DNA of 64,000 nt from Natranaeroarchaeum sulfidigenes (lineage in GTDB: Archaea > Halobacteriota > Halobacteria > Halobacteriales > Natronoarchaeaceae). A program made the translations under genes and the position numbers. The stretch spans positions 2,418,001-2,482,000 of the forward strand of contig NZ_CP064786.1 of the NCBI RefSeq assembly GCF_017094485.1, written 5' to 3'. The notes under the pieces are model-generated. The model worked only from the letters and a program-made list of their open reading frames with translations. It was not told the DNA's origin and ran no database searches. Below are positions 60,642 to 64,000 of this stretch, one piece after another (positions within the stretch are counted from its first letter, which is position 1; every line of letters starts with the position of its first letter).

Positions 60642-61706
60642 TCATCGCCAGAACCCATCGTAGTAATCGAGGACGGAAACGAAGGCGACGTGTGGGAGCG
60701 TCAGCACGGCGATAAAGACCAGATAGACCCCCATTAGGCTCCCGGGGTCGGCTGCGGCTCCCGGCAGCAACAGGTAGAGCGCGACGGCAAACACGAGTGA
60801 GAGCGCCGTCAGCGGGGCAGCGTCGCGGGCAAACCGGGCCATCGGGGCCACGACAGCCCCGTCGTCCACGGACGCCGCAATCCGGTCGTCAAGCAGCAAA
60901 AATCGGACGATGTGCCGGAGCGAGTGCCAGAAACAGAAGTACAGGCCGATCGCAAGCAGTGGTGGGACGGTAGCAAAAAACACGACCAGCAATCCGGTTT
61001 CGGCGGCGTCGATCCGCCACGGACGCGTGTTCGACGCACGAATCCACCCCAGCCCGAGTGCAGTGACGACGAGCGAGCCGTACACGACGGCGACGAGAAG
61101 GCGCGCTTCGGTAGTGAAGAATGGATCGAGTGCACCGACGGCACCCGGGTCGACTACGCCGACGATCCACTCGGCGACGCGTCGGTACTCGCCGGGGAAC
61201 GCGACCAGCGGCACCAGCATGGGTGCGCCGCCGCGGACGAGGGCGGTCAGTGCCGTCCCGCCGGGACCCCGGACGTGTGTGACACCGACGAGTTCCCGAA
61301 GCGGGTGCACGTCACCCTGTCCCCAGTGAAACCAGGTGAGCAGGATGAAGAAGACGAACGCGGCGGCAGGCGAGAGAAACCAGACCACCGCGTACCCCCC
61401 ACCGAGCAGTGCGTACACGAGCCCGACCTCCGCCAGTGAGCGGGCGGTCAGTCCCGTCCCTCTCGCACGGGGAGTGACGAGATGGTCGACCGCACCGTGG
61501 GGAAGTCCCAGCAGGAGGACGCTCAAGAATAGTGGGGCTAACTGTATCGAAAGCGGAATCTCCGTGCCGACGACCGTGACAACGACGGAGGTCGCAAGGA
61601 GCGTGATCCAGCCCGGAAGAAGCGCCAGTCTGGCGGCCCCCTCTAACCGCCGTCCAGCAAGGGCTGTTGTGAGTCGCTCTGCAGTAGGGCTGGAAGTGTC
61701 ACTCAT
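60642..61706 (-). CDS. blh: Beta-carotene 15,15'-dioxygenase, Brp/Blh family
   Basis: A 354-aa integral membrane protein with about eight hydrophobic helices. Conserved His motifs of the family are L-P-H-G-A-V-D-H, W-F-H-W-G-Q-G-D, F-W-H-S-L-R-H and L-P-H-V-A-F-V. It cleaves beta-carotene into two retinal molecules, the cofactor of the rhodopsin next door. TTTTTTAT at 61731-61738 on this strand is 25-32 nt before the ATG, so blh has its own leaderless promoter downstream of hop. Confidence 0.93.
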   Translation of the reverse strand: MSDTSSPTAERLTTALAGRRLEGAARLALLPGWITLLATSVVVTVVGTEIPLSIQLAPLFLSVLLLGLPHGAVDHLVTPRARGTGLTARSLAEVGLVYALLGGGYAVVWFLSPAAAFVFFILLTWFHWGQGDVHPLRELVGVTHVRGPGGTALTALVRGGAPMLVPLVAFPGEYRRVAEWIVGVVDPGAVGALDPFFTTEARLLVAVVYGSLVVTALGLGWIRASNTRPWRIDAAETGLLVVFFATVPPLLAIGLYFCFWHSLRHIVRFLLLDDRIAASVDDGAVVAPMARFARDAAPLTALSLVFAVALYLLLPGAAADPGSLMGVYLVFIAVLTLPHVAFVSVLDYYDGFWR

Positions 61707-61763: not shown

Positions 61764-62627
61764 TCAGTCGTCAGCAGGGGCCGCGCCGGACGCCCCGGAG
61801 CGGTCGACGCCGACCGACGGCATGTCCGCAATGACCGACTCGTTCTTCGCGACCCAGTTCAGCAGCAGGAACGCGAAGATGTACTTCGCGACGATGTCGA
61901 GCCCGCTGTAGGCCCACGAGGTGATCGCGACGTCGAGCACGGCGATCCCCTCGGCGCCGAGCGCCCAGAAGATCGGGTAGCCGAGCCACATCGCGACCGT
62001 GAGGATCTTCAGCGTGTTGAAGATTTCAGCCGTCCCGTTCGCTTTGGCGTCCTCCGGCCACTTGACCAGCAGGACGTAGAGGACGACCAGGAAGAACATG
62101 CAGCTGATGAAGTACCAGAACCAGCGCAGGCCGTGTGAAGACACGGTCAGTGCAGCTGCAAGCCCGGTCACACACATGCTGATGTCCGCAACAAGGATCG
62201 TGAACAGATCCGTCGCGTTAGAGCCTGCAAGCAGACCGAGTGCGAGCAGGATCATCGGAGTCGACAGTGCCCAGGTGAGGTAGCGACCCCACATGGTGAG
62301 TACCTCTTCGCCCGCGAGTGCGTGCCCCGCCGGCATCTCCAGGAAACTGATTGTCAGTCCGGACACGAGCCCAGTATAACTGGAGATTGAGACAAGCGGG
62401 ACCATCAGCGTCGCCACGAAAATCAGCTGCGCGCGTGGATCTTTGACGTTACGACCCATATACACGAACAGCAGGATCGAGAGGCCGGCAAGCGCGATGT
62501 TTACCCAGAACGAGGCGCTCAGCAGCGCGTCATCCTGTACTGCCTCGAAGATTTCTGGCTGTGTCATCTCGAGGAACGTCCCGAACTGTGCTATTGCAGC
62601 CGCATCACCAGCTATCGCCTCTAACAT
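61764..62627 (-). CDS. hop: Halorhodopsin, light-driven chloride pump
   Basis: A 287-aa seven-helix microbial rhodopsin. Retinal binds Lys248 in L-D-I-V-A-K-Y-I-F. At the bacteriorhodopsin positions 85/89/96 it has Thr118, Ser122 and Ala129, the T-S-A pattern of chloride pumps, with the conserved Arg115 before them. The G-R-Y-L-T-W-A-L-S-T-P and W-L-G-Y-P segments agree with Halobacterium halorhodopsin. Start 62627 is placed by a TTTTTACAT box about 26-34 nt upstream; the longer frame runs through the promoter. Confidence 0.97.
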   Translation of the reverse strand: MLEAIAGDAAAIAQFGTFLEMTQPEIFEAVQDDALLSASFWVNIALAGLSILLFVYMGRNVKDPRAQLIFVATLMVPLVSISSYTGLVSGLTISFLEMPAGHALAGEEVLTMWGRYLTWALSTPMILLALGLLAGSNATDLFTILVADISMCVTGLAAALTVSSHGLRWFWYFISCMFFLVVLYVLLVKWPEDAKANGTAEIFNTLKILTVAMWLGYPIFWALGAEGIAVLDVAITSWAYSGLDIVAKYIFAFLLLNWVAKNESVIADMPSVGVDRSGASGAAPADD

Positions 62628-62652
62628 AATCCAATCGAAGAGGGGTACGACT

Positions 62653-62682
62653 ATGTAAAAAGGGTATGTCCTTACTAGTATG
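62653..62682 (-). promoter_or_regulatory. hop promoter: TATA box and Bat-UAS-like element
   Basis: TTTTTACAT at 62653-62661 (minus strand) is the TATA box. Directly upstream, 62669-62682 (plus strand TCCTTACTAGTATG) resembles the Bat-binding UAS of Halobacterium bop (consensus from memory ACCcnactagTTnG), sharing the central ACTAG. Its position, -42 to -55 from the start, is that of the bop UAS. Confidence 0.5.
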
Positions 62683-62731
62683 AACACATCCTACAAACAT
62701 GCGAAAAGGTACCAAGAGAAACTCAGTAGTC

Positions 62732-62754
62732 GGTTGGGAGCACTAACCCCAACC
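62732..62754. promoter_or_regulatory. Inverted repeat GGTTGGG/CCCAACC between hop and bat-like gene
   Basis: A perfect 7-bp inverted repeat (62732-62738 and 62748-62754) near the middle of the 201-nt divergent intergenic region. It could be an operator serving either gene or both. Confidence 0.45.
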
Positions 62755-62828
62755 CGTGTTCTTAATATTTCTAAATTGATAATGAAACATACCAGAACAT
62801 ATTATCCGACGCGCTCCAATACCTTACT

Positions 62829-64000
62829 ATGATCAAACCCCGGACGCTGCTCGTGTATCCGGCGGAAGACGCCGACGACATCAAGGCCTCACTTGAGAGC
62901 ACGGGCTGTCAGGTCGTCCACGTCAGCAAGGCGACGAGAGCGCTCGCCAAACTGTCCAGCCAGCAGTTCGACTGCCTGGTGAGCGGGTACGAACTCCCCG
63001 GCGACGACGGGCTCTCGTTATTATCGGCCGTGCGCGAAACACATCCCGGACTACCGGTCGTTCTTTTTACCGACTCGGACGAAGAGGAGATCACGGAGCG
63101 GGCCTTCGATAACGGGGTAAGCAGGTTCCTTCGAAAGAACGGAGCCGAATCGTTACGCCAGTTAAACACCGAAGTCACCGATCTTACCGTCAACAGATCG
63201 GCGACGGTCCACAAAGAGGAAATCGAGGAACACAGACCGACGCCGGAAGATATCTCGCGTGCCGTCCACGAGGCACCGATCGGAATCACGATGAGCGACC
63301 CCACACTGGCGGATAACCCGCTCGTGTTCGTCAACGAAGCATGGTCCGAACTGACCGGGTACGACGAAGGAGACATGCTCGGTCGGAATCCTCGGATCCT
63401 ACAGGGGCCGGAAACGGATCCGGATAACGTCGACGAACTGGCGACAGCAATCGAGGACGAAGAGCCAGTCACCGTCGAGATCCGAAACTACCGGAACGAT
63501 GGGACACCCTTCTGGAACGAGTTGACAGTCGCGCCCATATACGATGACGACGGAGAGCTCGTCCACTACGTCGGGTTCCAGAACGACGTGACAGACAGAA
63601 AAGCAGCCGAACGGCTCGCAAAGGGGCGCGCGGAGAAACTAGCAGCCGAACGGACCGTATTGCAACGAATACTATCGCGTGTGAACGGACTCCTTAGCGA
63701 GATTACCCGGATCCTCGTCGAGGAGAACGAACGTGCAACGATCGAACAGCAAGTCTGTGAGGAGATAGTCAGCTCGAAAAGTTACGTCGCGAGCTGGATC
63801 GGGACGATGAATCCAGCTGATACGAAGCTACAACTGTCGACACAGACGGGAGCGATATCCGGGATTCAGTCGCCAGTCGAGATCGAATCGATGCCGAACG
63901 CGGTCGAAGACGCACTCGAGTTGGGGAGCGTCAGGGTTTGCACAGTCGGCTCCGACGAGCGCGGGCGGCTCGCCCCGGACTCAGTCGGCGCACGACGGCT
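62829..64000 (+). CDS. Bat-like sensor-regulator (receiver-like, PAS, GAF), cut by window end
   Basis: About 390 codons visible, continuing beyond the window. Residues 1-115 form a receiver-like domain whose phospho-acceptor Asp is Gly53 (S-G-Y-E-L-P-G), while Thr81 and Lys103 remain. A PAS domain covers about 145-255: V-F-V-N-E-A-W-S-E-L-T-G-Y and G-R-N-P-R-I-L-Q, ending F-Q-N-D-V-T-D-R-K. A GAF-like region starts near 300. The layout is that of haloarchaeal Bat/HTH_10 regulators, whose DNA-binding part would be outside. It is divergent from hop. Confidence 0.85.
   Translation, partial: MIKPRTLLVYPAEDADDIKASLESTGCQVVHVSKATRALAKLSSQQFDCLVSGYELPGDDGLSLLSAVRETHPGLPVVLFTDSDEEEITERAFDNGVSRFLRKNGAESLRQLNTEVTDLTVNRSATVHKEEIEEHRPTPEDISRAVHEAPIGITMSDPTLADNPLVFVNEAWSELTGYDEGDMLGRNPRILQGPETDPDNVDELATAIEDEEPVTVEIRNYRNDGTPFWNELTVAPIYDDDGELVHYVGFQNDVTDRKAAERLAKGRAEKLAAERTVLQRILSRVNGLLSEITRILVEENERATIEQQVCEEIVSSKSYVASWIGTMNPADTKLQLSTQTGAISGIQSPVEIESMPNAVEDALELGSVRVCTVGSDERGRLAPDSVGARR

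Follow-up and report, generated by a model that had tools for sequence, protein, structure and literature searches.

The halorhodopsin gene hop of Natranaeroarchaeum sulfidigenes is preceded, immediately upstream of its TATA-like box, by a 14-bp inverted repeat that is probably an upstream activator sequence (UAS) of the Bat type known from the bop gene. Judging from sequence comparison, the Bat-like protein encoded divergently from hop most likely binds this element as a dimer and activates hop, and a second site at the far end of the regulator gene would likewise drive the lycopene cyclase gene crtY. The window, that is the whole 64,000-nt stretch of DNA analysed here, and the sequence directly following it contain the features below.

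60642..61706, minus strand: blh, beta-carotene 15,15'-dioxygenase (Brp/Blh), the retinal-making enzyme (PF15461 and TIGR03753)
61764..62627, minus strand: hop, halorhodopsin, 287 aa (Bac_rhodopsin, PF01036)
62628..62828, no strand: promoter region of 201 nt shared by the divergent hop and bat-like genes
62653..62661, minus strand: TTTTTACAT, TATA-like box of the hop promoter, following the putative UAS after 8 nt
62670..62683, minus strand: putative UAS of the Bat/bop type, TCATACTAGTAAGG, an inverted repeat of 14 bp and the window's best matrix match (20.3 bits)
62829..64000, plus strand, extending beyond the window as far as L002:3817 (G000:C1:2482817): Bat-like activator, 662 aa, REC-LOV*-GAF-BAT-HTH_10
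G000:C1:2482809-2482822, beyond the window: exact UAS match CCTTACTAGTTAGG, overlapping the bat stop codon, upstream of crtY
L002:3969-4757, beyond the window, after the bat-like gene: crtY (lycopene cyclase)
L002:4758-5099, directly after crtY: DUF7565 protein, 113 aa

The product of hop has halorhodopsin as its top PDB match (3a7k, E 5e-112; proton pumps reach about 1e-28), and no second opsin gene, hence no proton pump, was detected in the 3.04-Mb genome. The start codons of hop (62627, minus strand) and of the Bat-like gene (62829, plus strand) delimit the 201-nt region from which an initial sequence-only reading had described the two genes as divergently transcribed, and blh follows hop as described there, after a gap of 57 nt. 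Transcription of blh may start at the hop promoter or at a T-rich stretch of its own upstream of the gene. The DUF7565 protein downstream of crtY contains paired Cys/His residues and is at most a tentative candidate for a Brz-like small zinc-finger co-regulator.

Read towards the gene, the hop promoter consists of TCATACTAGTAAGG - ACATACCC - TTTTTACAT - 25 nt - ATG, and the repeat spans positions -56 to -43 relative to the start codon. The sequence-only reading had placed a TATA-like box at 62653-62661 and, upstream of it at -42 to -55, an ACTAG-bearing site positioned like the UAS of bop. The box is located there, ACTAG falls inside the repeat at 62670-62683, and the measured position is close both to the claimed one and to that of the Halobacterium salinarum bop site (53 nt). 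The site itself turned out to be stronger than first thought: on a matrix built without the window, from hop promoters of other haloarchaea, its 20.3 bits make it the best site in the 64 kb, where the runner-up reaches 13.0 bits. Such a match is expected with a probability of about 9e-8 per position and about 4e-5 for the intergenic region on both strands. In comparison with the strict bop-type string ACCnnACTnnTTnGG, the element shows three departures, and the earlier estimate of about 9 of 12 matching bases was a fair count for that string. This partial match could be taken to mean that the resemblance to the bop UAS arose by chance, an explanation that is hardly credible in view of the probability calculated for the region and of the conservation at a fixed position upstream of hop found in many species. 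The part that is conserved is the dyad CC-N2-AC...GT-N2-GG, while at position 8 of the 14-mer 43% of sites have A and 34% have G; the ACTAG block singled out earlier is thus present within the element but is not the conserved core itself.

An expectation-maximisation motif search in a dereplicated set of 56 hop upstream regions, the window not among them, recovered the motif CC(T/A)TAC(T/C)nGT(A/T)(T/A)GG with a log-likelihood of 298, as opposed to 47–55 in shuffled sets. This de novo motif corresponds to the 14-bp inverted repeat CCWWACYRGTWWGG, and its matrix is self-complementary (column cosine of 0.97 with its own reverse complement), as expected for binding by a dimer. The repeat starts 54–59 nt before the ATG in 42 of the 43 promoters scoring at least 8 bits (56 nt in the window). 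An alignment of 44 promoters shows the TATA box beginning with T in every one of them, at position 23 counted from the UAS start and thus 8 nt behind the repeat; the spacer between dyad and box is made up of eight variable bases. Lack of conservation of the block upstream of hop in relatives, which would have spoken against the original observation, was thus not seen: the element forms a position-locked footprint in the hop promoters of many of them. In the same-genus genome G140, whose hop is 93% identical, all 14 bases of the UAS are kept and most of the intergenic region differs; the cores at hop and at crtY are both identical between the two genomes, whose Bat proteins share 66% identity.

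Because the block adjoins the TATA box and its distribution follows lineage, it could also be viewed as a general, BRE-like core-promoter element, or as a sequence kept only through the movement of hop together with its promoter between species. Both versions are very unlikely, since the 14-bp dyad is set off from the TATA box by variable bases, is rare in the genome, is kept in the sister species despite diverged flanks and also occurs at other pathway genes that are unrelated to hop or to each other (crtY, blp, and bop). The hop UAS is nevertheless lineage-restricted, being absent from Halobacterium and from most other sampled genera: a universal hop UAS in haloarchaea was rejected on a wider sample, drawn mainly from other genera, in which 11 of 80 hop promoters reached at least 8 bits (about 2 in shuffles). 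Several hop promoters of a Haloarcula-like genus (g11, L299-L310; the genus name is a guess) carry CCGATACCGTTTGG 8 nt before TTTAAGT, which is a form of the dyad shifted by one base.

The Bat-like protein comprises a receiver domain followed by PAS (PF13426), GAF (PF13185), BAT (PF15915), and HTH_10 (PF04967) domains, the four numbered families all scoring above their cut-offs. Its PAS domain is a LOV domain (top PDB match YtvA LOV, E 2e-35) which keeps the flavin-pocket N/Q residues and carries Pro188 at the position of the adduct cysteine (GRNPRILQ aligned to GKNCRFLQ). Among hop-linked Bat relatives, the LOV and HTH domains are the most conserved and the remaining domains drift. BAT-LOV* of Halorubrum hochstenium, described as a bacteriorhodopsin regulator, binds flavin and changes its conformation on chemical reduction, and a conformation change on photoreduction was reported for a BAT-LOV* variant (Yee et al., 2015, PMC4682037). 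By analogy, the LOV* domain of the Bat-like protein probably binds flavin and responds to its reduction.

Close orthologues of this protein, defined as loci above 450 bits (n = 51), carry Pro at the cysteine position in 46 cases and Cys in five. Every one of the 51 has a match to hop, bop, blh/brp, crtY, or blp no more than about 7 kb away, a few of these neighbour matches being weak (e.g., an opsin-like one of 28% at L220). A blp homologue is found near bat in 35 of the loci; the Blp of H. salinarum (L171:3933-4196), which is bop-linked and has no assigned function, matches the SRPBCC/Polyketide_cyc2 family. The idea that the Pro-type Bat is specific to hop was rejected, as most Halorubrum orthologues adjoin bop or blp/Brp homologues. 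Across 133 genomes with hop, a hop UAS of at least 8 bits is present in 37 of 39 genomes with a Bat orthologue vs. 21 of 94 without one (Fisher 1e-15), and a count by hand at the genus level, beyond which shared ancestry is not corrected, gives 10 of 11 vs. 4 of 30 (9e-6). The exceptions run in both directions: two Halonotius genomes possess divergent bat and hop genes with no UAS, six of seven Halorubrum genomes without a Bat orthologue retain the hop UAS, and some UAS-positive genomes without an orthologue (the Natronomonas-like g20) encode a Cys-type Bat beside hop.

Hop sites in genomes without the orthologue, as in G327 and in Natronomonas-type genomes (several with a Cys-type Bat next to hop), would also suit a true activator site that is bound by another HTH_10 regulator or by a Brz-like zinc-finger partner, with the neighbouring Bat-like gene serving something else, and this genome does encode 21 HTH_10 proteins, the Bat-like protein and 20 others. 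Such an alternative regulator is unlikely when set against the strong co-occurrence of the Bat orthologue with the hop site and the fact that bat adjoins homologues of hop, bop, blh, crtY, or blp in every close orthologue locus. Binding of the hop element by the divergent Bat-like protein remains the preferred reading, and the surroundings of crtY are consistent with it. According to pattern searches, from which the genome-wide site counts derive, the sole exact match to CCWTACTNGTWWGG in the 3-Mb genome is the site upstream of crtY, whose ATG follows about 150 nt downstream. The genome's best site and one of its next-best sites are located 2.1 kb apart and flank bat. In G140, the crtY site is conserved in the same place, as is the hop site, and in both G000 and G140 the elements are hence found at opsin and carotenoid genes alike. 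A similar crtY-side site at L048 likewise overlaps the end of bat, and in Natrinema-type loci hop has no element and crtY has one about 100 nt upstream. The blp homologues of L209, L210, L231, and L251 have a UAS site 41–78 nt upstream.

Further UAS-like sites were identified outside these loci. One-mismatch sites elsewhere in the genome, located before a KatG-like gene and inside Brp-like and other coding genes, were dismissed as chance-like. A second Brp/Blh-like gene lies beside a CrtI-like gene (L178:2237-3265, corresponding to G000:C1:2658236-2659264) and holds a UAS-like palindrome within its coding sequence. Class-wide, the strict 15-mer has 40 exact matches as opposed to 21 for a reversed control, and in an opsin-free genus (g22, L143-L150) an exact UAS-like 15-mer is common to the species, near another gene. 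Since the excess over the control is only about twofold and copies are conserved in an opsin-free genus, the UAS sequence alone is unspecific. The product of the g22 gene presumably resembles an arginyl-tRNA synthetase, and the conservation of the 15-mer there suggests that another regulator may use a similar dyad. In several lineages, UAS-like sites are also situated upstream of an amino-acid permease gene with a Usp domain (L231:3766, L040:4098, L063:4090, L005:8197, and L165:1501-1515, the last being G140:C8:152080); the site in L231 lies between hop and bat. Judged by these positions, the permease is a possible extra member of the regulon, and the closest permease homologues of this genome have no good UAS site.

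The following mechanism can be proposed. A dimer of the Bat-like protein would use its HTH_10 domains to bind the 14-bp inverted repeat in front of the TATA box and would recruit or stabilise TBP/TFB, leading to transcription of hop and probably of blh behind it, and the perfect second site would promote transcription of crtY. The cysteine-less flavin LOV domain might sense flavin reduction, caused by low oxygen and/or light, and the cell would thereby produce the pump and its retinal jointly under conditions in which light is a useful energy source. The compact chloride-pump light regulon of regulator, pump, and retinal enzyme suggested by the sequence-only reading is supported by these data and gains an extra site at crtY, outside the window.

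Neither the UAS element nor the class of activator nor the LOV* chemistry is new. Binding of Bat to the upstream activator sequences of the bacteriorhodopsin regulon has been reported for micro-oxic, illuminated conditions (PMC1885257), and whether its effect on bop is direct or indirect has been left open (PMC2253796). An arrangement with biogenesis genes linked to hop has been described in N. pharaonis alone, and the other halorhodopsin genes known at that time showed no pattern (PMC1885257). Searches of the literature, with subscription literature outside their scope, revealed no description of a UAS at hop; with element and activator both known, the locus would represent a new member of the Bat/UAS regulon, centred on halorhodopsin. 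The regulation of halorhodopsin has apparently been little studied in the literature searched, and the link may have gone unnoticed because the hop promoter of the model species lacks the element. A flavin-based Bat activator is predicted to act directly on the chloride pump gene in many other haloarchaea. The 14-bp palindrome is defined precisely enough for mutation, and the hop and crtY promoters around bat form a two-promoter system in which to ask whether Bat binds the UAS directly and whether the response is to light or to redox state.

On a broader scale, one orthologous flavin redox/light activator could have served as a movable switch across haloarchaea, with individual lineages re-choosing their pump by gaining or losing the dyad, a scenario about which we are undecided and, on balance, slightly doubtful. 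It would account for the dyad at the proton pump in many Halorubrum Bat loci and at the chloride pump here, in Halohasta, and in the Natronococcus type, as well as at retinal, blp, and even amino-acid permease genes.

The closest known parallel is the Bat/UAS regulon of bop in H. salinarum, where an activator of the same domain class is encoded next to genes for opsin and retinal. The bop site was taken from the genome sequence of the H. salinarum-like G018 (whose bop matches the H. salinarum protein at 100%), in which the promoter consists of ACCATACTGATTGGG - TCGTAGAG - TTACAC and the first C of the CC pair lies 53 nt from the ATG. It shares the dyad and the 8-nt spacing to the TATA box with the element described here, which starts 56 nt from the hop start codon, and it scores 13.9 bits on the hop matrix; other bop promoters show the same element with the same spacing. 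Upstream of the neighbouring brp gene, ACCCCACTAGCTTGG lies some 51 nt from the probable ATG (counted by hand), and this site also departs from the strict bop-type string. An exact match at G018:C6:32058 was rejected as a regulatory site, as it sits inside a coding frame. The bop gene of G018 is broken after its first codons (G018:C1:1-92 and G018:C7:1-146); each of the two contig ends carries other sequence, as if an insertion element had interrupted the gene. The targets differ between the two systems: here they would be the chloride pump and crtY, whereas in H. salinarum the target is bop and hop has no site, the UAS being absent from the hop promoters scanned in G018 and G023. At the LOV cysteine position, the Bat described here has Pro and that of H. 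salinarum has His. In the halorhodopsin region of Natronomonas (PMC1885257), hop is linked to biogenesis genes, as it is here, and at the Natronomonas-type loci L041 and L044 hop has a UAS and is situated near bat; the Bat there is of the Cys type (GRNCRFLQ) and more distant, with 34% identity to the present one. BAT-LOV* of Halorubrum hochstenium has the same REC-LOV*-GAF-HTH architecture, with Pro188 and Trp172 at positions identical to those of the Bat-like protein; its LOV* domain contains no Met residues, which are present here, and it is linked to bacteriorhodopsin (PMC4682037), whereas the Bat-like gene of N. sulfidigenes is divergent from halorhodopsin.
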